DNA from: Imperialibacter roseus
GTDB taxonomy: Bacteria; Bacteroidota; Bacteroidia; Cytophagales; Cyclobacteriaceae
DNA: 64,000 nucleotides
Assembly: GCF_032999765.1 (NCBI RefSeq)
Contig: NZ_CP136051.1
Coordinates: forward strand, 1,526,417 to 1,590,416
Direction of reading: 5' to 3'
The notes below the pieces were generated by a model. That model searched no databases. It worked only from the letters and a program-made list of their open reading frames with translations, and was not told where the DNA came from. Within the stretch, counting starts at the first letter, position 1. Every line of letters starts with the position of its first letter. This document shows, piece by piece, positions 8,692-22,800 of this stretch. Position numbers and translations under genes: made by a program.

Positions 8692-9061
8692 AGCTGTAGA
8701 AGCTGGCTTTCTTTTTCTTGATGAATATCTGACGGAAGCTGTTGCCTGACAGCGACCCCAGCCCGCCAGCAATGGCACCTACGAAGCCGGAGCCAATCAC
8801 CAGGTAAATGGGATCGCCCACTTTGAACAGCGCAGCCACCTTGGCAGTAAGTATGCTGTGTGATTCGATGTCTATTTTCCATGAAATGACCATCCACAGC
8901 AAGCCAACACCAATAAAGCCACTTACAAATGCACCGAAACTGCTGGTAGGAATTGCCAGCGACACGCCTGCAGCCACCACTACCATTCCCCACCAGGGAA
9001 GGTACAGGCCTGACAGGTAAGCCAATCCGGCGATGAGCATTACTTTTATGATGAGTTTCAT
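8690..9061 (-). CDS. Small hydrophobic membrane protein, unknown function
   Basis: A 123-residue protein with about four membrane-spanning stretches (around 5-21, 24-45, 47-62 and 87-110) and a basic C-terminus with a run of four lysines. I do not recognise the family. Its ATG overlaps the stop of the penicillin acylase gene by four bases (ATGA at 9058-9061), so it is translationally coupled and should be made with the acylase. An inner-membrane partner or an unrelated cargo gene are both possible. Confidence 0.7.
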   Translation of the reverse strand: MKLIIKVMLIAGLAYLSGLYLPWWGMVVVAAGVSLAIPTSSFGAFVSGFIGVGLLWMVISWKIDIESHSILTAKVAALFKVGDPIYLVIGSGFVGAIAGGLGSLSGNSFRQIFIKKKKASFYS

Positions 9062-11484
9062 TTGTTGGAAGGGTTAAGCGTTTGAACAAGCGTCGCATTA
9101 GCGGCGAGATCAGCCTGCTGGGATGTGAATTGCAGGCTGAGGTATTTACCGGTTGCCCAGGGCGTGACCATATCAGCATAAGTTGGGTTGCCCGGGTTGC
9201 CGGTTTGGCTGCCGGGATAAACTCCCCAGGCTTTTACGCCCGCCTTGTCCAGCTCCACCACCATCCTCCACGACGGGCCGTGCCTTCGGCTGGCAGCATT
9301 GACTATGCCATGATTGCCGCCAATCTGCACATCGGTTACACTGAATGGTTCCAGCCGCATGAGATGCTGAATTGTGGTGTTCTTGAAGTTGGCCCAGGTG
9401 AGGTCAACGCTGTGATTGCCTTTCCAGCTTTCAACGCTATCAAGGGAGGAAACAAAAGTAATTGACAAAACATCCTTTATCGTTTCTTTTCGGGAGGTGC
9501 CAAGCACATCGGCGAAAGCGAGATCAGGATTGTTTTTCATGAGCACACTGGTGTGGTAGTTGTGCGGCTTGTAGGCCGCTACGCTCATTGTGTCAAACTC
9601 ATCCCAGAGCAATGCATAAAACTGATCCCACCACTCTTCAAAGTAGACCGGCGCCACCTTTTCGGGGTCGTTAAAATAGTCCCACTTGCGTAACAGTTGA
9701 TAAACCTCCCTGGTACGGGCAACCATCTTTCCGGTGTCAAGGCTGTCGAGCATAAAAGTCAGGTTCTCGTAGGCCAGGTAGTTATAGTTGTCGTTTTGCA
9801 GCTTCATCATGTCTTCAGGCTTAATGTTCTGCATAATTTTCAGCCGGTCGTTAATTCGCCTGTTTCTATAATGCTCGTAATTGTAGTCGTAAACGTAATA
9901 GGGGTAGGTGGCATCTGCCGGGTGCTGGTTAGCTGAGCTTACGAAATTCCGGGCTGGATTGAGTTCGTGGATATTTTGCTGCTGAGGAATGAAAGGCCCC
10001 CAGTCGTATTTACTGTAACGCCCGTCCATCAGGAATTTTCCCTGCTCGGGGTATTTTACAGGGAATTTACCCTGCACCCACATGGCAATATTGCCGTGTA
10101 CATCTCCGTAGACAATGTTTTGTGGTGGCCCTGAGTAGTGTTTGAGCCCCTCCAGGTAGTCGTTGTAGTTTTTGCCCCGGTTGAAATGATAGAATAGACG
10201 GAAGTCGTTGGACGTGTCGTGTGCCGTCCACCGAAACGCAAAATTCACCTGCTCGCCGTTGCCTTTGAAGTTTCGGTCGTAGGTAACAGGGCCAAAGTGG
10301 GTGTAGATCACTGTGTCATACTTAGTGTCCTCGCCTCTAACTGTAATTTCTTCTATCACTTTCTGTGTTTTCAGCCATTTACCGTCGTAGAGGTATTCGT
10401 CACGGTCATCATTTCTGAATTGGATGTAGAACCAGTCAGCCACATCTCTCTTGGCGTTGGTGAATCCAAAAGCGATGGAATCTGTAAACCCAATGGTGAT
10501 ACCGGGCGATCCGGGAAAAACTGCGCCCATTACATTTACTGATGGGCTATGCAAATGTGCCGCATACCAGATGGAAGGTAAGTTGAGGCCAAGATCCGGT
10601 TCGTTGGCCAGCAACACATGCCCGCTCGCAGTTTTGCTACCAGTTACGGCAAAGTTGTTACTGCCGTTTTTTGGGTCAGGCTTGCTGATGACCTGCTTTA
10701 CTTTTGTAAGTGGTAAAGAGTCGTTGGGGTTAGCAACTCTTAAGGGTTCGAAGTCAAACTTAGTGCCTGCGGTAATAATTGGATCGATGCCTGGGTCTCT
10801 GTCAGGAAACAAAAAATTGAACGTGTCTTTACCCAGAAGCCTCACCATGTTGGTGTTTTCAAGGTCGGCTTCTCCAGAAGAAAGCTGATCAGACATTTCT
10901 TTGAGTAGCAGACATATTTTATATGGGCTAAATGGTTCTGGCTCATAGTCGAGCAGTTTATATTCTATTGGAAGGTCTTTGTAGTCCAGTGTGGCGATGT
11001 AAGCATTTACGCCATCGCTATAAGCCTGAAGCATTTCGTATATGGCCTTGTCTTTTTTTACCTCCTCAAGCATCCAACTGGCACTGTAGGCTAGTCCTTT
11101 TCTTCGTTGCTGCTGATCAAGCGACAGGGTGAGGGGGCCAAGAATTTCCGATAGCCGGCCCGCTGTTTTGTAGAGCTGAAACTCCATTTGCCAAAGCCGG
11201 TGGAAGGCGATAGTATATCCTTCTGCAAAGTAGAGATCGTGGTCGCTTTCAGCGAAAATGTGCGGAATCAGGTCTTTGTCCCAGTATATTTTCACAGGTT
11301 CTTCCAGGCCATCCAAAGCTAGCTGCTCTGGTGCTTTGATAGCAGTGTATTCGCTGTTGGCCCAGAAGCCACTCATCGGATTAAGGAACTTTCCCAGTGG
11401 TGGGATATTGCCATTTTTGGAATTCAGAACGACTACAAGAACGATCGTTATTATTGTGAAAAAGACAAACTTAAATACTTTCAT
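9058..11484 (-). CDS. Penicillin acylase family Ntn-hydrolase
   Basis: An 808-residue member of the penicillin amidase family, which cleave amide bonds of beta-lactams, N-acyl-homoserine lactones or lipopeptides. Residues 4-21 form a signal or membrane anchor, then comes the alpha-chain region. The autocatalytic cleavage site and N-terminal nucleophile lie at Gly274-Ser275 in NGSNNFAVTGSKT, the usual G-S-N-N/W pattern. The motif LLANEPDLGL at 291-300 follows as in the family. Length fits a single precursor processed into two chains in the periplasm. It is coupled to the small membrane gene downstream. Substrate unknown; quorum-quenching or self-lipid hydrolysis are options. Confidence 0.92.
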   Translation of the reverse strand: MKVFKFVFFTIITIVLVVVLNSKNGNIPPLGKFLNPMSGFWANSEYTAIKAPEQLALDGLEEPVKIYWDKDLIPHIFAESDHDLYFAEGYTIAFHRLWQMEFQLYKTAGRLSEILGPLTLSLDQQQRRKGLAYSASWMLEEVKKDKAIYEMLQAYSDGVNAYIATLDYKDLPIEYKLLDYEPEPFSPYKICLLLKEMSDQLSSGEADLENTNMVRLLGKDTFNFLFPDRDPGIDPIITAGTKFDFEPLRVANPNDSLPLTKVKQVISKPDPKNGSNNFAVTGSKTASGHVLLANEPDLGLNLPSIWYAAHLHSPSVNVMGAVFPGSPGITIGFTDSIAFGFTNAKRDVADWFYIQFRNDDRDEYLYDGKWLKTQKVIEEITVRGEDTKYDTVIYTHFGPVTYDRNFKGNGEQVNFAFRWTAHDTSNDFRLFYHFNRGKNYNDYLEGLKHYSGPPQNIVYGDVHGNIAMWVQGKFPVKYPEQGKFLMDGRYSKYDWGPFIPQQQNIHELNPARNFVSSANQHPADATYPYYVYDYNYEHYRNRRINDRLKIMQNIKPEDMMKLQNDNYNYLAYENLTFMLDSLDTGKMVARTREVYQLLRKWDYFNDPEKVAPVYFEEWWDQFYALLWDEFDTMSVAAYKPHNYHTSVLMKNNPDLAFADVLGTSRKETIKDVLSITFVSSLDSVESWKGNHSVDLTWANFKNTTIQHLMRLEPFSVTDVQIGGNHGIVNAASRRHGPSWRMVVELDKAGVKAWGVYPGSQTGNPGNPTYADMVTPWATGKYLSLQFTSQQADLAANATLVQTLNPSNK

Positions 11485-13131: not shown

Positions 13132-13512
13132 CTAATCCACATTTTCTTTTTTAAATGTTGAAAGCCAGCCTAAAGCATCTTCCTGTGAGGTAAAGAGCCT
13201 CGTAGGTATGGTGGGTTTGCTCACGCTGAGAAAAAAATTACCCAGCAGCCGATTGACTGGCGACCCGACAACCAGCGCACAAGCGTTCATATTTTTGATT
13301 CCATCCCCCTCAGCAAAAGCCGAACGGGCGTCTTTTGTGATGGTTTTTACACTTGAAACATCCCCCAGGAAAGGATATGTCTTTCCGTCGCAGGCTTCTA
13401 CCCGAGCGGTAATCATGTGGTTGGCCACTTCCAGATCGACCTCGTCCACTTTGTAATACCCAAACATGATATCGTCTTCTGTCCAAATCTTTATGTACTG
13501 GTTTTCTATCAT
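13132..13512 (-). CDS. Small STAS-like protein (DUF7793-type), copy 1
   Basis: A 126-residue cytosolic protein with no known catalytic motif. It is homologous to the 123-residue protein at 22429-22800: both share a core of the form (K)xYPxLxDxxxx(K), then DARSAFAEG / ARDFLAKEG, ALVVGSP / ALVVDSP, FYLKVSKP-like and TRLFTS / TKMFSS segments. The alpha/beta pattern recalls STAS/SpoIIAA anti-anti-sigma or DUF7793 proteins (name from memory). It is divergent from the oxoamine synthase fusion gene, sharing a 132-bp intergenic region, and is followed by the YkgJ-like gene. The mirrored placement of its paralogue suggests a role tied to the fusion enzyme or the kinases. Confidence 0.75.
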   Translation of the reverse strand: MIENQYIKIWTEDDIMFGYYKVDEVDLEVANHMITARVEACDGKTYPFLGDVSSVKTITKDARSAFAEGDGIKNMNACALVVGSPVNRLLGNFFLSVSKPTIPTRLFTSQEDALGWLSTFKKENVD

Positions 13513-13644
13513 ATCATTTACTCTGTTACGGATGTAGGGTTCTTAGTTCATTAGGGCATATTCAGGATAGATGGCAGAGTAATTTTGAGTCATAATTAAC
13601 AAAAACTAATCTCTAGCAAGCTTCAAAAGTAAACTATTTTTCTC

Positions 13645-16071
13645 ATGGCTAAAACACGTCACAATCATTTACTGGATACAATTGATGATATTATTACCAG
13701 TGCCGCTAACAAAGGCATTGTCCACCTTCACTCTCAGGGAGACTCCTTGTCAGGCTCAACCCTAAGGATCAATGACAGGGAATTGAAACACTTTGGCACA
13801 TGCGGTTATCTGGGGCTGGAACAAGATTCAAGGCTAAAGGCTGGTGTGATTGATGCCGTGACTAAATATGGCACCCAGTTTCCTATGTCGAAGACTTATG
13901 TGTCGTCACCACTATATGCTGAGTTGGAGAATTTGATAGAAGCAATGTATGGTTATCCTGTTATTCTCACTAAGAATAGTACCCTTGGGCACATCACAGT
14001 GATACCTTCTATTATAAGAGACGACGACGTTGTTATCCTGGATCAGCAAGTGCATGCCAGCATACAAAGTGCCGTGCAAATGCTGAAACCAAAAGGTGTG
14101 CGGGTAGAGATTATCCGCCATAGCAACCTCGAAATGCTGGAGGAAAGAATACAAGAATTGCGCTCTAAGTACAACCGCATCTGGTACATGGCCGATGGCG
14201 TGTATTCTATGTATGGTGATGTGGCTCCGATAAAGGAAATGCAAAAGCTGGCAGATAAATATGATCAACTCTACTTGTACGTTGACGATGCCCATGGAAT
14301 GAGTTGGGCAGGTGAGCATGGCACAGGCTTTATCATGAGCCAGGTTAAGATGCATAGAAAAATGGTGCTGTGCGCAACCATGGGCAAGTGCTTTGGCGCC
14401 ACCGGCGGGCTCATTGTCTTTCCCGAAGAGGAAATGCGACGCAAAGTAAAAATATTCGGTGGTCCTCTTACTTTCTCAGTGCAAATAGAACCACCCATGC
14501 TTGGTGCTGCTATTGCTTCAGCGAAAATTCACCTTTCGGATGAGATATATGCCATGCAGCAGCGGTTAGCTGGTAAGATTGAGTTTTGCAATGAGCTTAT
14601 TCGGCAAACTGACCTTCCGCTGGTGGTCGAAAATGAGTGCCCTATTTTCTTTATAGGCACAGGCATGCCTGCCACAGGATACAATTTTGTAGAACGGCTG
14701 ATGAAAGAAGGGTATTATGTCAACCTGGGTGTGTTTCCGGCGGTGCCTGTGAAAAATACAGGGGTTCGGTTTACAATCTCTTGCCACAATAGCGAAGCAG
14801 ACATTGAAGGCTTTGTGGAGGCGATGGACTACCACTACCCGAAGGCATTGGAAGATGAGGGCAAAACGGAGAACGAAGTACGCAAATCATTTAAAATGCC
14901 ATTGTTGAGTGAGAAGGCAACTTTAGAAGCAAAAGTCACTTCGGAGCTTACAGCGCAGGTGAGCTCAACCATAGAAGCATTTCCAGAAGAAGAGTGGAAC
15001 AGGCTTATCAGCAAGAACATGTCTGTCGACTGGAAGGGTATGAAATTCATTGAGGAGGCATTTTCTGGCAACGACCTTCCTGAGGAAAATTGGAAATTCC
15101 ACTATCTGATGGTGCGGGACGGCGAAGGAACGCCAGTTTTGGCTACGTTCTTCTCAAGTGCGCTCTGTAAGGATGATATATTCGCCCAGGCTGGTGTTTC
15201 CATTCAACTTGAAGAGGATAGAAAATATAATCCCTACCTGCTGACTTCACAAACCCTTGTGATGGGCTCGTTGATGACCGAAGGCAACCACTTTTACCTG
15301 AATAAGGGGCATAGCCAGTGGGAAGAAGCTGTCAGGATCATGATTGGAAAGGTCGGTGAAATTCAGGAGTCTGAGAAAATAAGCGCTACCTATCTGAGAG
15401 ACTTTGATGACAACGACCCTCAACTGAAGGAGGTGTTTCACGACCAGGGCTTTGTAAAAGTTGATGTTCCCGACTCTTGCGTAATTGACAAGCTTGGATG
15501 GAAAAACACAGACGAATTCCTTTCGGGGCTGTCAACCCGCTCACGTCGCCACATACGTTACGATGTACTGAAGTATGAGCATATGTTTGATGTTGAGGTG
15601 GTAAATGCACCCTCAAAAGAGGATATGAGACATTTTCAGGACCTGTTTAGAAATGTCAGGAACAGGAACTTTGCCATTAATGTGTTTGACTATCCTGATA
15701 AATTTTTTCAAATGATGCCAGGTGAAGCCGGGTGGGAGTTTGTGGTGCTGAAACTGAAGCCTGAATTCGATAGTAACCAGAAACCTGTTGCTGTCGCCTT
15801 TAATTACCGGAACGACGCTGGAGTATATACCTTCCTTTTGATAGGAATGGACTATGAATATCTTGAAAAGTACAATATCTACAGGCAAACTATTTACAGA
15901 ACGCTTCAGCAGGCAAACACGCTTGGCTATCAGACGCTGCGACTAGGTATCTCGGCCACGATTGAGAAGAAGAAATTTGGCGCTAGCGTGCATCCAAAGG
16001 TGGCGTTTGTTCAAATCAAGGACAACTTTAATATGGAACAGATTGAGCAGTTGGCTGTGAGCCAGGCTTAA
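13645..16071 (+). CDS. Fusion of PLP alpha-oxoamine synthase and GNAT acyltransferase, copy 1
   Basis: An 808-residue two-domain protein. Residues about 45-400 form a PLP-dependent alpha-oxoamine synthase (family of KBL, BioF, serine palmitoyltransferase, CqsA): NSTLGH at 111-116, VDDAHGMSW at 213-221 (Asp214/215 and His217 hold PLP) and the Schiff-base Lys248 in ATMGKCFGATGG. These enzymes condense an acyl-CoA with an amino acid. Residues about 450-808 resemble FemAB/BioF2-like GNAT acyltransferases (STRSRRHIRYD; LIGMDYEYLEKYNIYRQTIY). A single chain could thus make an alpha-aminoketone and N-acylate it; that is inference. A hybrid kinase gene starts 36 bp downstream. A frameshifted paralogue lies at 19868-22299. 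Confidence 0.88.
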   Translation: MAKTRHNHLLDTIDDIITSAANKGIVHLHSQGDSLSGSTLRINDRELKHFGTCGYLGLEQDSRLKAGVIDAVTKYGTQFPMSKTYVSSPLYAELENLIEAMYGYPVILTKNSTLGHITVIPSIIRDDDVVILDQQVHASIQSAVQMLKPKGVRVEIIRHSNLEMLEERIQELRSKYNRIWYMADGVYSMYGDVAPIKEMQKLADKYDQLYLYVDDAHGMSWAGEHGTGFIMSQVKMHRKMVLCATMGKCFGATGGLIVFPEEEMRRKVKIFGGPLTFSVQIEPPMLGAAIASAKIHLSDEIYAMQQRLAGKIEFCNELIRQTDLPLVVENECPIFFIGTGMPATGYNFVERLMKEGYYVNLGVFPAVPVKNTGVRFTISCHNSEADIEGFVEAMDYHYPKALEDEGKTENEVRKSFKMPLLSEKATLEAKVTSELTAQVSSTIEAFPEEEWNRLISKNMSVDWKGMKFIEEAFSGNDLPEENWKFHYLMVRDGEGTPVLATFFSSALCKDDIFAQAGVSIQLEEDRKYNPYLLTSQTLVMGSLMTEGNHFYLNKGHSQWEEAVRIMIGKVGEIQESEKISATYLRDFDDNDPQLKEVFHDQGFVKVDVPDSCVIDKLGWKNTDEFLSGLSTRSRRHIRYDVLKYEHMFDVEVVNAPSKEDMRHFQDLFRNVRNRNFAINVFDYPDKFFQMMPGEAGWEFVVLKLKPEFDSNQKPVAVAFNYRNDAGVYTFLLIGMDYEYLEKYNIYRQTIYRTLQQANTLGYQTLRLGISATIEKKKFGASVHPKVAFVQIKDNFNMEQIEQLAVSQA

Positions 16072-16107
16072 TTTAAAAGGAATTAGTTTACTCTCTTATA
16101 ATATCTT

Positions 16108-17823
16108 ATGACCGTATCAGAAATGAGTGTAATTACGGATGATGATCGACTGGATAAAATCAATGCCTTAATTGTCAAACTGGCGTCCGGTAACCTGGAT
16201 GCCAGAGAAACTCCCTCCGATGATTTTGATGAGGTAGATGCAATTATTGCAGGGATCAACATGCTTGGTGAAGAACTGGAGAGTTCCACTGTGTCCCGCA
16301 ATTACCTAAAAAGCATCTATGATGGTATTGTGGACATGGTCATCATAGTAAAGGAAAACGGCCTTATTCAGGGAGTCAATGGTGCCGTCACGAAGCTCCT
16401 CGACTACTCGGAGAACGACCTGGTTGGGAAGAATTTGTCAGACGTTTTCAAGTCCGATTCTGCTGAACCTTTGGGTTTTCTGGAGCACCTGAGAGATGAT
16501 AGCAGTCTTCATAACATTGAAGGCATGGTGATGGGCAAATCTGGAAAAGAAACGCCGGTTAGCACCTCCTGCTCCATTTTGATTGACTCAAAAGGTGAGC
16601 CTGCCGGGCTGCTGCTAGTGGCCAAGGACATGACTGTTCAGAAACAGATTGAGGCTGAACTTAAGAAAAGCAAAGAAGCGGCGGAGTTGTCCAATCGGAT
16701 GAAAAGCAGTTTTTTGGCCAATATGAGCCATGAAATCAGGACGCCTCTCAATGGAATTCTTGGATTTACCGAATACCTCATAGGGATGAGCATTAGCGAC
16801 GAGCAAAAGGAGTACCTTCAATTGATTGAAAGTTCCGGGCAAACGCTAATGAAGCTTTTAAGCGATATTTTGGATCTCAACAAGATAGAAGAAGGTAAGC
16901 TCGGGTTTGATCACGTGCCCATTCATTTCAAAGAGACCATGACCTCTTCTCTTCAGCCATATAAATACATGGCCAACGAAAAGGGAGTAGCATTTGGTCT
17001 AGAGTTTGAGAATTTTGATGAAATTTCCCATGTGTATTGCGACCCTACCCGTGTAAATCAAATAATGGTAAACCTGGTAGGAAACGCTCTGAAATTTACC
17101 AGCAAAGGAAAAGTAAGTGTCAAACTAAGCATTTCCCCTATTGGCGATGGCAAACGAGCGATGATCAGAGGTTGTGTTTCCGACACAGGTATAGGTATTC
17201 CAGATGACGTTAAAAATGATATTTTCAAGGCATTTGTGCAGTCCGATTCGTCCATTACAAGGAGATTTGGCGGTTCAGGACTGGGTTTGTCGATAGTAAA
17301 AGAGCTTATTCATTTGATGGGAGGGGAAATCAGTATTGGCAGCCCTTCCCACATAGGCACGGCTGAAAACCCCGGCTCTGAGTTCAATTTTAACTTCTCT
17401 GTAGACATAGCCGAAGCACCGGTAAATGAAACATTAGAGAAGTTTGAAAAGCTGGAGTTTACAACGCAGTACAAGTTACTTGTGGTGGAGGACAATGAGA
17501 TGAATCGTATTCTCGCAGGGAGGGTATTGAGCAAGTTTGGAGCAACGGTTGAATACGCCGTGCATGGCAAGGAAGCGGTACAAATGCTGAAAGTGAACGA
17601 TTACGATGCCATTTTAATGGATGTTCAGATGCCCGTGATGGATGGACTTCAAGCCACACGGGTTATCAGGAGACTGGGGTATGACTTGCCCATTATTGGC
17701 CTGTCGGCCAACGTGTTCAAGGAAGATATAGACAGGAGCAGGCAAGCCGGCATGGACGATCACATTGGCAAGCCATTTACCAAATTATCCATTTTTAGAG
17801 CGTTGAAAAATGTGCTAGAATAG
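16108..17823 (+). CDS. Soluble hybrid histidine kinase (HAMP-like/PAS/HisKA/HATPase/REC), copy 1
   Basis: A 571-residue hybrid sensor kinase without transmembrane segments. An N-terminal HAMP-like stretch (about 12-60, ending GINMLGEELESS) precedes a PAS domain (about 65-175), HisKA with phospho-acceptor His208 in FLANMSHEIRTPLNG, an HATPase domain (DTGIGIP at 359-365, GGSGLGLSI at 388-396), and a C-terminal receiver with acidic pair Glu461-Asp462, phospho-acceptor Asp505 in LMDVQMPVMDG and Lys555. All catalytic residues are present. It has no DNA-binding output, so phosphate should pass to another partner. Only 36 bp separate it from the oxoamine-synthase fusion gene, so co-transcription is likely. 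Its signal is probably cytosolic. Confidence 0.93.
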   Translation: MTVSEMSVITDDDRLDKINALIVKLASGNLDARETPSDDFDEVDAIIAGINMLGEELESSTVSRNYLKSIYDGIVDMVIIVKENGLIQGVNGAVTKLLDYSENDLVGKNLSDVFKSDSAEPLGFLEHLRDDSSLHNIEGMVMGKSGKETPVSTSCSILIDSKGEPAGLLLVAKDMTVQKQIEAELKKSKEAAELSNRMKSSFLANMSHEIRTPLNGILGFTEYLIGMSISDEQKEYLQLIESSGQTLMKLLSDILDLNKIEEGKLGFDHVPIHFKETMTSSLQPYKYMANEKGVAFGLEFENFDEISHVYCDPTRVNQIMVNLVGNALKFTSKGKVSVKLSISPIGDGKRAMIRGCVSDTGIGIPDDVKNDIFKAFVQSDSSITRRFGGSGLGLSIVKELIHLMGGEISIGSPSHIGTAENPGSEFNFNFSVDIAEAPVNETLEKFEKLEFTTQYKLLVVEDNEMNRILAGRVLSKFGATVEYAVHGKEAVQMLKVNDYDAILMDVQMPVMDGLQATRVIRRLGYDLPIIGLSANVFKEDIDRSRQAGMDDHIGKPFTKLSIFRALKNVLE

Positions 17824-18165
17824 ATTAGGCTTAATTCAATGTTGTGCGCCACATTACCTGTTTTTACCCACGTTAGTGGGAACGGATTCATTTCTTCCTG
17901 GTTACCTACAGCACTCAATAGCCAGTTTTTGATGACAAAGATGAGTTGTTTTGGCCATGTTGACCGTCTACAAACTTCTGATCGGTAGTTGACCACTTTA
18001 TGATTCTATAAGGTTTTCTCTTCCTTTGCATTAAATTATGCTGGAAATTAACGTCTTCGAACTATAATTGTAAATTAGAGGGAGTTTAACCGTAGACCAG
18101 TGTCAGGTAAATAATATGGACCATCTCTTTTGCTGAAATAGTCGAAAATGTAAAGCGTACGCCAG
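17824..18165. other. Intergenic stretch between the two hybrid kinase genes
   Basis: 342 bp without a gene. A short hairpin (CCCAC 17867-17871 with GTGGG 17876-17880) follows the first kinase gene but has no strong T-run after it. I could not pick a convincing TAnnTTTG promoter for the second kinase gene. Confidence 0.5.
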
Positions 18166-19863
18166 ATGCTTCCGAAACACGAGATTCCAGATCACCTCAA
18201 GGGCAGAATAGACGACATAATACAATTGGTATATGAGATAGCCAATGGTAATTTCGAATATCGGCTTCCTCGCTATGGATTCAATGATGAATTGGATGGC
18301 CTTGTCGGTGGGATCAACATGTTGGGTGAAGAGCTCAAGTCCTCCATGGTATCCAAAAATTACCTTGAAAGCATTTATAAGGGAGTAGTAGATGTCCTTT
18401 TCATCCTTGACATCGATTTTCGAATTGAGGAAGTGAATGAAATCACACTGGAAAAATTCAATTGTGAAGAAAGTGCTCTACTCAAACGGCCACTTGCCGA
18501 ACTGCTAAGCGAGAATGAACAGATACTCCTTGAAAGGGTGAGGGCGGAACTTGGCGAGAAAAACATTTGCCGGATCAATGAGTTGCACTTCTGCTTTAAT
18601 GGCGAACTGTCCAAGCCGCACTCAGCCACGTTTTCCTATCTCCTCAACAGTCAGAATCAGCCGTCCAATATCCTGCTAATTGCTAAAGACGTCTCTGTTT
18701 TTAAGGAAGCAAGGGAAAGGGCAGAGGCATCCAATGAGGCCAAAACACGGTTTTTGGCGAATATGAGTCATGAAATAAGGACGCCCCTTAGTGCCATTTT
18801 AGGGTTTATCGACCTAATGTTTGAAACTTCTCCTACAGAGGAGCAGCAAAATTTTCTACGGCTTATCAAGGCTTCCGGTGAAGACCTCTCAAAACTGATT
18901 AATAACATTCTGGATATTAATAAGATTGAGGCAGGCAAGCTTACGCTTGAACAAATAGAATTTCAGTTTGAGGAAATAATGAAATCAAACTTGAATCCTT
19001 ATCGCTACCTGGCCAGGGAAAAAGGGATCGATTTGTCTATCTCTATTGATCCCGCTATACCTAAAGTGCTTATTGGCGACCCTCAAAAGATAAACCAGAT
19101 AGTCCGAAACCTTGTAAGCAATGCGGTGAAGTTTACAGTTACCGGCAATATAAATGTGAATTTCACCAGCTTGCCAGCCAAGGCAGGTTATGCTGTTATT
19201 CAGGGAGATATTATCGATTCGGGGATCGGCATCCCCTCCAATAAGCTAAACGTTATTTTTGACAGCTTCACGCAGGCCGATGACTCCACTTCCCGTAACT
19301 ATGGAGGATCCGGTTTAGGGCTCACAATCTGCAGGTATTTGCTCAACTCCATGGATGGAGACATAAAAGTAGAAAGCCCACCGGTGAGTTTTGGGTTCGA
19401 AAAAGGCACCGCATTCACATTTACCATGGAGCTCAAGGCGGCAGACTCGCAGGTTGTGAAGCCAAGAGAGGAAGCGCAAACCTTGAAGCTGAAGTTCAGC
19501 CGGCAATACCACATACTTGTGGTTGACGATAACGATCTTAATCTGAAGCTTGCGAAACGGGTGCTGGAAAATCTGGGAGCCAAAGCGCTAGTGGCCGACA
19601 GCGGACAGAGTGCGTTGGAACTCATCAACATCCATGACTTTGATTTGGTTTTCATAGACATTCACATGCCGGAAATGGACGGCTACGAGCTGGCCGCAAA
19701 AATCAGGAAAATGCAGTATAATATGCCTCTTATAGCCCTTTCGGCAGATGCTTATGAGGAAGCTGTGCTAAAGTCGCTGCAGTCGGGTATGAATGCCCAT
19801 GTTAAAAAACCATTTACAAAGGAGGAGATTTTTGTCGCCTCGAAGGGGTTTTTAGAGCTTTAG
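18166..19863 (+). CDS. Soluble hybrid histidine kinase (HAMP-like/PAS/HisKA/HATPase/REC), copy 2
   Basis: A 565-residue paralogue of the preceding kinase with the same order of domains and no membrane segments. The N-terminal HAMP-like region ends GINMLGEELKSS (49-60). The PAS domain (about 65-178) is the most divergent part. HisKA has His202 in FLANMSHEIRTPLSA, the HATPase has DSGIGIP (351-357) and GGSGLGLTI (380-388), and the receiver has Asp454-Asp455, phospho-acceptor Asp498 in FIDIHMPEMDG and Lys548. All key residues are intact. It ends only 4 bp before the stop of the convergent frameshifted fusion gene. The differing PAS domains suggest the two kinases sense different inputs. Confidence 0.93.
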   Translation: MLPKHEIPDHLKGRIDDIIQLVYEIANGNFEYRLPRYGFNDELDGLVGGINMLGEELKSSMVSKNYLESIYKGVVDVLFILDIDFRIEEVNEITLEKFNCEESALLKRPLAELLSENEQILLERVRAELGEKNICRINELHFCFNGELSKPHSATFSYLLNSQNQPSNILLIAKDVSVFKEARERAEASNEAKTRFLANMSHEIRTPLSAILGFIDLMFETSPTEEQQNFLRLIKASGEDLSKLINNILDINKIEAGKLTLEQIEFQFEEIMKSNLNPYRYLAREKGIDLSISIDPAIPKVLIGDPQKINQIVRNLVSNAVKFTVTGNINVNFTSLPAKAGYAVIQGDIIDSGIGIPSNKLNVIFDSFTQADDSTSRNYGGSGLGLTICRYLLNSMDGDIKVESPPVSFGFEKGTAFTFTMELKAADSQVVKPREEAQTLKLKFSRQYHILVVDDNDLNLKLAKRVLENLGAKALVADSGQSALELINIHDFDLVFIDIHMPEMDGYELAAKIRKMQYNMPLIALSADAYEEAVLKSLQSGMNAHVKKPFTKEEIFVASKGFLEL

Positions 19864-19867
19864 TACC

Positions 19868-22299
19868 TTATTTTTTTTGAATGATCCCCATCATTTCGAT
19901 AGAGTAGTTGTCTTTGGCTTGAATAAAAGCAACTCTGGGATAAATGGTGGCCCCTAGTTTCTTTTTCTCAAAGGAAGAGGAGTAACCGAAGTTTATTTTC
20001 TTAAAGCCCAACGACTGCGCTCTCACAATTGTTTGATACAGCATTTGCCGATAGGTCTGATACTTCTGCACATAGTCATAGTCCATGCCAATGAATGCTG
20101 GTACGTAGGTTATATTATTGTTGTTGAAACAGAACATGACCGCAATGGGGTTGTCGGTTTCATTTTGTTCTTGTTTTTCTTTTTTAAGCCTCAGTATAAT
20201 AAACTCCCAGTTAGTATCTGCCGACATCTTTTCAAAAACGCTCTTGTTGAAAGGGAATGTATTGACATCTAAATTCTTGCTCCAGACGTTTTGGTACAAT
20301 GCCATGAACTGGCGAATCTCATCTTCGGCAAGGGTCTGTTTTACTTCAATGTCGAAGTAGTCTTCAAAGGGAGCCACGTCTTGCCTGAAATGCTTTCTGG
20401 ATTTGCTGGAAAGAGTTGAAATATATTCTTCTGTGTTTGCCCACGACAGGTCTTCCACAGTACATGATTCTGGGAGTGTAGTTTTGAAAAAACCTTTCTT
20501 CAACACATACTCTTCAATTTCGGTATCGCTTTCGTCGAAGTCCCTTAGCACAATGGAAGAAGGCTTGAGAAGTTCATCCAGTTCTTCTACTTTTTCGATA
20601 ATCAAGTCCATCGCATTTTGCCATCGGTCATCATTTTTATCAAGAAAGAGATGTTGGCCTTCAGTAAACAGCGACCCCATAATTAGTGCTGTTGACACCA
20701 TGAAGCCGGGCTCTGATTTCCTTTTTCTTCAAACTCCTTTGAAATTGAAGCTGGCGCCAGCATGTCTTCTTTCCAAAGAGCGAAAGTAAAAAAGGTAGCA
20801 GCTATCACTTTTTTATTTTCATCACGAACGAGAAGATAAAAGAACTGCCAGTTATTTTCCTTCTCTTCATTATCAGTAAAGGTTTTCTCAAGAAACTGAA
20901 GCCCCGCATGATTGAAAACACCCTCTCCTCCAAAGTACGTGTCCCAGATTTTAGCGTCAATCTCACCGGCAGAGCGGAAGGTTTCTAGTGTCAGTGTTTC
21001 TGTTTTGCTGGCAGCGACTTTATTTTCTTTTTCAATAAGAGGAAGGTCAAAAATCTTTCTTACACTATTCATCGAATAGCGCTCCTCCTCCAGGGCCTTG
21101 GGAAAGTTTTCATTCAACGCCGCCACCAACTGCTCGATGTCCTCACGCTGGTTATGTCTGGAGATTGTAAATCTGATCCCGGTTTTCTTCACTGGTACAG
21201 CCGGAAAAATACCCATGTTACCATAGAAGCCGGCATCATACATTTTGTTAACAAAATTGTAGCCCACTGCGGGTGCACCTGCTCCAATATAGAAAACCGG
21301 GCAGTCATTTCTATCTACCAGCGGTAAATCTGTTTGTGCCAGTAAATCATTGCAATAGTCTATTTTGTCACGCAATTCCGCTTGCATCTCAACAATCTCA
21401 GGGCTCAGGTGAATCTTAGCAGAGGCAATGGCTGCCGCTACAGATGCCGGTTCGAGCTGCGCAGAAAACGTAAGTGGCCCTCCAAAGTTTTTGACCTTAT
21501 TGAAGTAGGACTGATTGGAAGAAACCAGTATGCCACCGCTTGCGCCAAATGACTTGCTGAGTGTACTGAAAAGGAATACATTCTCGGGCAGTTCTTTGTA
21601 TTGGTTCAGCACATAACCGGTTCCGTTCTCGCCTACCCAGCTCATGCCATGCACATCGTCGAAGTATAGATATAGCTGGGGGTATTTAGCGCACAACGCT
21701 TTGAGTTGCTCAATGGGTGCGGTGTCGCCAAACATAGAGTACACACCATCAGCACAATACCATATTTTTTCCCGGCCAGGGCTTAGCGCTTTAATTTTTT
21801 CCTCAAGCATATTCATATTGTTATGCCTGATCATATCTACTGTCACTCCTCTGTTTTTTAGCAGGAGGGAGGCATTCTGTACACTCCAATGTACATAGTG
21901 ATCTAAAATAACCGCATCTTCATCACGCACAATCGATGGGATTACCCCCATATGGCCAAGCGTACTATTTTTCATAACCAGCACGGGAACTTTAAACATG
22001 AGATTTAACTTCTCTTCTAGTTCCTGGTACAGCGAATGGGAAACATAACTTTTGGATAGGGGGAACTGTGTGCCAAACTTTTGAATGGCATCAATAGCGG
22101 CATCTTTTAACCTTTGATCTTGCTCAAGCCCAAGGTATCCCGTGGTGCCGAAATGAAAAAGATCTTTCCCATTTATTCTAATAGTTCGGCCAGTGAAACG
22201 CTCGTCTTCAGTGTGCAGTTGTATGACTCCACGTGATTTTGCGTCCTCTGCTATGGTATTAAGTGTGTCAATTAAGTTATTATGTTTTACTTTTGCCAT
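19868..22299 (-). pseudogene. Fusion of PLP alpha-oxoamine synthase and GNAT acyltransferase, copy 2, one-base frameshift
   Basis: Homologous end to end with the fusion at 13645-16071. The first frame (start 22299, stop at 20683) encodes the intact oxoamine-synthase domain, with FDDVHGMSW at 213-221 and Schiff-base Lys249 in STLSKSFGASGG, and runs into the GNAT part. The rest continues in another frame from about 20712 to 19868. Total length is 3n+2. Adding one base near 20711-20714 restores a run aligning without gaps to the paralogue (EEKGNQ-EPGFMVSTALIMGSL against EEDRKYNPYLLTSQTLVMGSL). So one base is missing: a true mutation, a phase-variation event or a sequencing error. An ATG at 20701 could restart the GNAT half. 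It is divergent from a STAS-like gene, mirroring copy 1. Confidence 0.85.
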
Positions 22300-22317
22300 T
22301 TGGGTTAGTTAGATTGC

Positions 22318-22340
22318 CAGCTAAATTACACCAGCTAAAT
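22318..22340. promoter_or_regulatory. Tandem direct repeat in a divergent promoter region
   Basis: CCAGCTAAAT occurs at 22318-22327 and again at 22331-22340, 13 bp apart centre to centre. The repeat lies 19-41 bp before the start of fusion copy 2 (minus strand) and about 90 bp before the STAS-like gene (plus strand). Position and spacing suit a regulator-binding site; no regulator is identified. Confidence 0.35.
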
Positions 22341-22428
22341 GTAATATTTGCATTTTAATAAGAAGAGAGGTGCAGAAATTATGTATTTTTCCTCAAGAAT
22401 TTGACTATTAGTAGTTTGCGATTGATCA

Positions 22429-22800
22429 ATGGACAAGATAGAAAATGAGTTTGCTAGCTTTTTTCTGAAAGATGGGATCTTGCATTTTATCTACAAACCC
22501 AACACAGAGTTAGATGTCGATGCAGCCAAGAAGGTGGTTGAAGATAGGAAAACTATTCAGAAGGGCAAGTCATACCCCGTTTTGTGTGATATACGGGGGC
22601 TAAAAGATGTGGATAAGGTTGCCCGAGACTTTCTGGCGAAAGAGGGATCTTCTTTGGTGGACGCCGTGGCCCTGGTGGTTGACTCACCTGCGTACGAATT
22701 TATGGCTAATTTTTATCTGAAGGTGAGTAAGCCAGATGTGCCGACAAAAATGTTTAGCTCTATGGAGGAAGCGCTAGAATACATTAAAAAATTCAAGTAG
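22429..22800 (+). CDS. Small STAS-like protein (DUF7793-type), copy 2
   Basis: A 123-residue cytosolic protein, paralogue of the product at 13132-13512. Shared landmarks are SYPVLCDIRGLKDVDK near 46-61, ARDFLAKEG, VALVVDSPAYEF, FYLKVSKPDVPTKMFSS and a final alpha-helix (EEALEYIKKFK). No catalytic motif is visible. It is transcribed divergently from the frameshifted fusion copy 2 with a 129-bp gap, mirroring copy 1 and its own fusion gene. It ends at a strong bidirectional terminator. The function is unknown; an anti-anti-sigma-like or scaffold role is a guess. Confidence 0.75.
   Translation: MDKIENEFASFFLKDGILHFIYKPNTELDVDAAKKVVEDRKTIQKGKSYPVLCDIRGLKDVDKVARDFLAKEGSSLVDAVALVVDSPAYEFMANFYLKVSKPDVPTKMFSSMEEALEYIKKFK

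Follow-up and report, generated by a model that had tools for sequence, protein, structure and literature searches.

A block of six genes in Imperialibacter roseus, at positions 13132-22800 of the window (the whole 64,000-nucleotide stretch of contig NZ_CP136051.1 analysed here), very probably forms a dedicated module in which an enzyme is paired with a sensor. Its components are a fusion protein consisting of a pyridoxal phosphate (PLP)-dependent alpha-oxoamine synthase (AOS) domain and a C-terminal N-acyltransferase domain, a small protein of the family DUF7793, and a soluble hybrid histidine kinase. We further propose, with a probability of about 0.4, that these parts would make up a full signalling mechanism, in which an N-acyl aminoketone produced by the fusion is bound by DUF7793 and read by the soluble sensor.

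The preliminary description of this DNA had let its idea of a system depend on the neighbours of fusion homologues elsewhere; once tabulated, these neighbours do include DUF7793 proteins and sensors. A genome scan yielded 19 loci, and a search of the phylum found a full or nearly full fusion in 8 of 395 genomes. DUF7793 was present in 20 of the 395 (19 over the family cut-off), including all eight fusion genomes (Fisher 9e-12) and 12 without an intact fusion; here and below, p-values are indicative only, as the matches are related rather than independent and certainty is overstated. Clustering of the open reading frames (ORFs) within 9 kb of the fusion across 14 groups, which we labelled by genus or metagenome-assembled genome, showed that the only families recurring in at least four groups were the fusion itself (14/14), DUF7793 (13/14) and the sensor/kinase cluster (12/14). 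The missing DUF7793 belongs to a locus where its ORF is broken (L019), and the missing sensors to a locus at a contig end (L026) and to one with a 215-residue HAMP-like ORF (L024). Forty further fusion loci were taken from 57 matches, namely the 20 highest-scoring of 36 new matches at class level and 20 of 21 new ones at order level, and at least three of them repeat earlier loci (L133, L112 and L151 repeat L010, L022 and L024). DUF7793 lay within 4 kb in 35 of the 40 and a kinase or receiver in 25, the latter count rising to 30 once HAMP-like sensors are included, compared with no DUF7793 and one kinase at 20 control AOS loci, a comparison in which the kinase and receiver profiles, built from sensors at the same loci, favour these loci over the controls. 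The controls were the next-best AOS matches of the phylum search (<200 bits), several of them close relatives, with G210 and G140 (internal stops) and the second piece of G057 skipped; 18 entered the tree, and four were identified as two serine palmitoyltransferase (SPT)-like proteins, one Kbl and one unresolved case. Across 21 loci the distance matrices of the components co-vary (fusion-DUF7793 r = 0.94, fusion-sensor 0.81, DUF7793-sensor 0.85; 0 of 2000 permutations each), with shared species history contributing to these values.

Gene order and strands in the window are as first described: DUF7793 copy 1 (13132..13512, minus strand, 126 residues), fusion 1 (13645-16071, plus), hybrid kinase 1 (16108..17823, plus), hybrid kinase 2 (18166..19863, plus), fusion 2 (19868-22299, minus) and DUF7793 copy 2 (22429..22800, plus, 123 residues). 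Fusion 1 comprises the synthase domain at residues 1-410 (13645..14874, plus) and a tandem-GNAT, FemABX/N-myristoyltransferase (NMT)-like N-acyltransferase domain at residues 438-808 (14956..16071, plus), while fusion 2 occupies two ORFs rather than one open frame: a first piece of 538 residues, with the synthase domain and the start of the acyltransferase, that ends in a frameshift (20683..22299, minus), and a second of 277 residues with the remaining acyltransferase domain (19868..20701, minus; PF13480, 36.4 bits). The sister locus of Imperialibacter sp. EC-SDR9 (L009) can be aligned with the window for about 10.7 kb, with a nucleotide identity of 89%; it has each of the six genes, and its fusion 2 (16214-18646 of that locus, minus) is unbroken. 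Only one indel falls within these genes, a base missing from fusion 2 of the window at about 20725, which may be a sequencing error; the L009 orthologue was used in place of the broken gene for trees and distances.

Every component does occur twice, as two diverged copies that are 38-50% identical: the DUF7793 proteins share 38% identity over 121 residues, the kinases 40% over 566, and fusion 1 shares 50% over 531 and 40% over 271 residues with the two pieces of fusion 2. The mirror orientation proposed earlier holds for the outer genes but not for the kinases, which stand in tandem, and the term mirror-symmetric duplicated module is apt as a description but not as a history of duplication. 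Fusion 1 clusters with Marinoscillum (support 88/82; 100/96 in a second tree including L134 and L135), and copy 2 with the AraC-type loci of Flavobacteriaceae (100/100; 100/88 in the second tree), a placement that the DUF7793 tree repeats for its own copy 2 (89/81). A recent inverted duplication was rejected on these identities and on the position of the fusions in different supported clades, which indicates that two old lineages of one module stand back to back in the window. Among the loci examined, two fusions occur together only in the window and L009.

Of the 32 fusion genes in the first set, six are broken, as frameshift splits or N-terminal remnants (window 19868-22299, L024, L026, L065, L098 and L099), all with an intact neighbouring DUF7793 and, in the window, L065, L098 and L099, with an intact sensor; sequencing error, decay and lost signal production are possible explanations. 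Fusions L147, L148 and L150 were accompanied by neither DUF7793 nor a detected sensor, and L148 adjoins a gene of the phosphatidate-phosphatase (APP1) family. Outside the module, a penicillin-amidase family gene (PF01804, a family with N-acyl-amide hydrolases among its members) lies 1.6 kb away at 9058-11484 (minus), with an ORF of the same size in L009. It was considered as a signal-degrading partner and rejected, as the family recurs beside no other group's fusion.

Both fusions combine the AOS domain with a C-terminal domain matching the Pfam family Acetyltransf_6. The N-terminal domain belongs to the AOS superfamily, with the AOS fold and its catalytic Lys, His, Asp/His and Arg, and K248, H137, D214, H217 and R375 are invariant among the fusion synthase domains. 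Also invariant are a His (H116), at a position where six of eight other aligned AOS proteins have Asn, and S82, which matches position V79 of ThAOS and is likewise Ser in SPT and AONS, in an alignment read by eye. In the available excerpts of PMC11906848, the V79 position of ThAOS tunes amino-acid size and is Leu in Alb29. The best solved match of the PLP domain is Alb29 itself (193 bits by the fusion profile, Foldseek rank 1, about 27% identity).

The earlier idea of a system was to fall if the PLP domain proved to be an ordinary KBL or BioF enzyme, and this is not what the comparisons indicate. Neither PLP domain reached any NCBIfam equivalog cut-off: the top model, NF005697 (PRK07505), gave 267.0 and 271.9 bits against 342, the KBL models 114-145 bits against 460-493, the BioF model 165-166 bits against 426, and the SPT model NF047600 134.5 and 159.5 bits against 640. 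CFAT is not the closest solved relative either, with 122 bits (28eh) and 109 bits (7u7h) by the fusion profile. Because the host encodes a separate SPT-like gene (637 bits, cut-off 640), Kbl (707 bits, over its cut-off), a BioF-like gene (354 bits, under its cut-off) and two CFAT-like genes (L007 and L008, 564 and 587 bits to 7u7h), the fusion probably does not belong to any of these enzyme types. We rejected an ordinary KBL, BioF, SPT or CFAT identity on the strength of these genes, of the scores and of the closer match to Alb29.

The acyltransferase domain was modelled separately, since the whole-fusion Foldseek matches listed showed the AOS part only. The model (pLDDT 90.9) has two GNAT folds in tandem, of the FemX/MprF/NMT type, which places the domain among the FemABX/NMT tandem-GNAT transferases, with identities of 7-17% among the matches listed. 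Fusion 1 scored 39.4 bits for PF13480 and 28.6 bits for PF04339 (FemAB_like), the bCerS-type family, both over the cut-off and the latter barely so (gathering score 27), and the fusion 2 piece fell below it at 22.4 bits; the two fusions are the only host matches of PF04339. Because of the type of fold, the acyl donor may be either an acyl thioester or a charged tRNA.

The small protein had first been labelled STAS-like. It is now assigned to DUF7793 (PF25056), with 122.3 and 163.3 bits for copies 1 and 2 against a cut-off of 26, and the SpoIIAA-like family PF11964 falls just under its own cut-off for both. A profile of 28 DUF7793 members matches the solved protein 3bl4, which is SpoIIAA-like, at 2.4e-11, although DUF7793 forms a family of its own. 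The fold is SpoIIAA/SEC14-like, and transport of nonpolar ligands has been proposed for relatives that have it. Two SpoIIAA-like proteins resemble CRAL-TRIO carriers, and one has a large nonpolar cavity, according to excerpts of PMC2954212; because of this resemblance DUF7793 is a candidate carrier or receptor of the fusion product. R37 and K60 are invariant in DUF7793. In the aligned sequences read by eye for the SpoIIAA partner-switch mark, a conserved phosphorylatable Ser at the start of helix alpha2, the position preceding K60 holds T, S, D, E, P or R. Low-scoring DUF7793 proteins may reflect a different use of the domain. Two of them (L073 8014-8409 and L102 5869-6261) adjoin glycoside hydrolase genes and lack a HAMP-like sensor, and no HAMP-like ORF was found beside those at L073, L102-L106, L108 and L110. 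At L109 two DUF7793 ORFs adjoin a hybrid kinase, which gave no match to the HAMP-like profile, and the match at L111 is under the family cut-off.

Both window kinases carry a HAMP-like stretch followed by PAS, HisKA, HATPase and receiver domains, as assigned by Pfam and a HAMP-like profile. The common N-terminal stretch noted at the outset is present in both, but as a HAMP domain it stays sub-threshold: PF00672 (gathering score 25) gave 19.5 bits for kinase 2 and no listed match for kinase 1; hence the term HAMP-like. The sensor carries the motif DELD...N..EE. The profile matches kinase 1 at 2e-20 and kinase 2 at 5e-25, values that follow by construction, both being among the sequences (the two window kinases and 21 other sensors) from which it was built. 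The absence of membrane helices was borne out, with no hydrophobic segment long enough and a maximum Kyte-Doolittle 19-residue mean of 1.18 for kinase 1 and 1.19 for the L009 orthologue of kinase 2. The same lack of hydrophobic segments was seen in 23 of the 26 kinases at 22 fusion loci, and the other three are all at L112.

The HAMP-like input module is common to three outputs: the hybrid HisKA kinase, a HisKA_3 (NarL-type) kinase (L015 and L023, the latter with downstream LuxR-type receivers) and a PAS-AraC regulator (L011 and L062, in Arenibacter and relatives). DUF7793 and a HAMP-like sensor also occur without the fusion at L100, L101 and L107, and with a fusion remnant at L098 and L099. 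Because a shared input is combined with varied outputs and the pair also occurs without the fusion, these observations suggest that DUF7793 and the sensor together do the sensing, and that the fusion either supplies what they sense or is a target related to it. Two other features of these neighbourhoods were recorded. ORFs of about 215 residues with the HAMP-like stretch and no output domain found (L139 10462-11115, with a sub-threshold PAS match, and L024 12450-13097) adjoin fusions mostly from one family of the order, and at AraC-type loci (L011, L065 and relatives) an RteC-family gene lies downstream of the fusion (PF09357 in the two that were scanned, with 11 ORFs falling into one cluster).

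Stand-alone synthases of about 430 residues, without the N-acyltransferase, were recovered in the class and order searches at 398-574 bits. We chose 21 solo loci from 41 matches, 18 of 33 at class level (including L066) and three of eight at order level, leaving aside two partial class matches (G635 and G701). Solos and fusions together separate from the AOS controls (support 100/100); 17 of the 21 solos form one group (94/88), the main fusion clade has 98/96, and the tree does not resolve the branching among these two and a few long-branched sequences. One solo, L169, falls inside the fusion clade and still has DUF7793 as well as a HAMP-like ORF; it seems to be a fusion that lost its acyltransferase domain. 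A kinase or receiver lies within 4 kb of 15 of the 21 solo synthases (L152, L155-L163, L165-L168 and L066). By a crude hydropathy count, a multipass kinase (at least two hydrophobic segments, usually 3-5) stands at 14 of these 15 loci versus 1 of 22 fusion loci (Fisher 4e-8), and 15 of 16 solo-locus kinases have two or more such segments. At 7 of the 15 a receiver of 141-151 residues is encoded between synthase and kinase, the domains being Pfam-confirmed for part of the set (the receiver in L155), so that the solo loci echo, in Bacteroidota, a Cqs/Lqs-like gene order.

Taken together, these features suggest a sequence of steps. The PLP domain would join a small L-amino acid and a fatty acyl thioester into an alpha-aminoketone. 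Within the same chain, the tandem-GNAT domain would then acylate the amine, yielding an N-acyl aminoketone that resembles 3-keto-ceramide. The cytosolic DUF7793 protein would bind this product and act on the soluble PAS sensor at the HAMP-like N-terminus of the latter. The sensor's output, a hybrid kinase here and a NarL-type kinase or AraC regulator elsewhere, would set gene expression. We favour a signal of lipid type that is read within the cell, on account of the Spt/bCerS chemistry, the CRAL-TRIO likeness and the distance co-variation; in excerpts of PMC11087976, Spt and bCerS of Caulobacter are placed in the cytoplasm and the ketone intermediate is put forward as the substrate that bCerS acylates, the order of steps being disputed. 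A broader proposal, which is possible but in our view less likely than not, is that when an aminoketone-signal synthase gained the N-acyltransferase its receptor changed as well, forming a lipid-signalling family in Bacteroidota: membrane kinases would read the un-acylated products of the solos in Cqs/Lqs-like fashion, while inside the cell the N-acylated ones would be read by DUF7793, as a SEC14-like carrier, together with a soluble HAMP/PAS sensor whose outputs are exchangeable.

Several observations weigh against the signalling mechanism. The small-molecule signal is something we infer, linkage to a sensor would by itself also fit feedback control of a lipid, and no exporter or extracellular-ligand receptor family recurs beside the fusion within 9 kb in the 14 groups. 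The acyltransferase fold also fits the aminoacyl-tRNA donors of FemX and MprF, so that a group other than a fatty acyl may cap the nitrogen. The partnership has gaps as well: five of the 40 further fusion loci are without DUF7793, three of them (L147, L148 and L150) forming their own clade, with the other two at a contig edge (L131) and inside the main clade (L145), and 10 of the 40 are without a detected sensor, four of these at contig edges. Six of the 21 solos have no two-component gene within 4 kb; among the kinases at L112, on the same contig as L022, three have 2-6 hydrophobic segments and one of these three adjoins the fusion; and the DUF7793 tree disagrees with the fusion tree for copy 1, at weak support (65/66).

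The preliminary description had left the choice between a signal and a regulated lipid, and the linkage of fusion, DUF7793 and sensor holds for either. Regulated synthesis of a membrane lipid is the main rival, close behind and quite possible: the fusion would make a ceramide- or deoxyceramide-like structural lipid, and DUF7793 and the sensor would monitor lipid level or envelope state and tune supply, with no signalling between or within cells. The family PF04339 of the C-terminal domain also has matches in two control genomes, Caulobacter vibrioides and Synechococcus elongatus, the Caulobacter match being presumably bCerS. Excerpts of PMC11087976 describe ceramide production by Spt and bCerS in Caulobacter, a pathway with the same two enzyme types, in which C-acylation of an amino acid is followed by N-acylation. 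In the fusion the two activities would reside in one chain, and its PLP domain is far below the SPT cut-off. Against this rival, genes of the SPT-like, CFAT-like, Kbl and BioF-like kinds are already present in the host, and no reductase, acyl carrier protein or lipid-transport family recurs beside the fusion in at least four of the 14 groups, whereas sensor genes do. The patchy distribution (8 of 395 phylum genomes) and the multipass kinases beside the related solo synthases also fit a structural lipid poorly.

The strong co-variation of DUF7793 with the fusion is in line with another arrangement, in which DUF7793 and the sensor would respond to some other stimulus and act on the fusion enzyme, which would then be the output and not the signal source. 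Such control would resemble that of an ABC transporter by the STAS protein MlaB, and excerpts of PMC7367683 on MlaFB indicate that STAS proteins can regulate partners through direct binding. We consider this unlikely; the pair occurs without the fusion or beside its remnants and is therefore not solely an enzyme regulator. Least probable is a secreted secondary metabolite, such as an antibiotic or siderophore-like aminoketone amide, with incidental two-component control: the closest solved synthase does come from a Streptomyces natural-product pathway (excerpts of PMC11906848), but the families recurring beside the fusion in the 14 groups include none for tailoring, carrier or export functions. 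Alb29, an L-glutamate-using AOS of albogrisin biosynthesis (same source), is also stand-alone, unlike the fusion, and differs from the fusions' Ser at the selectivity site.

The preferred reading, a lipid-type signal read inside the cell, invites comparison with CqsA/CqsS of Vibrio and LqsA/LqsR/LqsS of Legionella. In those systems the synthase gene stands beside that of a membrane-embedded histidine kinase. The analogy drawn at the outset survives as one of gene arrangement, an AOS encoded beside a histidine kinase, and is clearest at the solo loci, 7 of 15 of which share the small receiver protein too. It does not extend to family membership, the window's PLP domains scoring 74.7 and 82.4 bits against a cut-off of 428 for the alpha-hydroxyketone autoinducer synthase model NF005526 (CqsA/LqsA). 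The fusion loci differ further in their N-acyltransferase domain, in DUF7793 and in their soluble HAMP-like sensors, and neither window kinase 1 nor the L009 orthologue of kinase 2 has the hydrophobic segments of a membrane-embedded cognate kinase. No description of this gene composition, nor any of DUF7793, was found among the titles and abstract openings listed by searches of the open-licence PubMed Central literature.

If the proposed mechanism is correct, the module would work like the CqsA/LqsA systems without belonging to them. Both domains of the fusion are amenable to direct expression and assay, and the protein offers a putative C-acyl and N-acyl transferase in a single chain as well as a possible role for DUF7793. 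Bacteroidota are abundant in soil, sea and gut, and to our knowledge synthase-type small-molecule signalling is poorly known among them. The loci described here provide a concrete candidate family for such signalling, in which probable aminoketone-forming enzymes travel with sensors, in one form with membrane kinases and in the other with soluble sensors.

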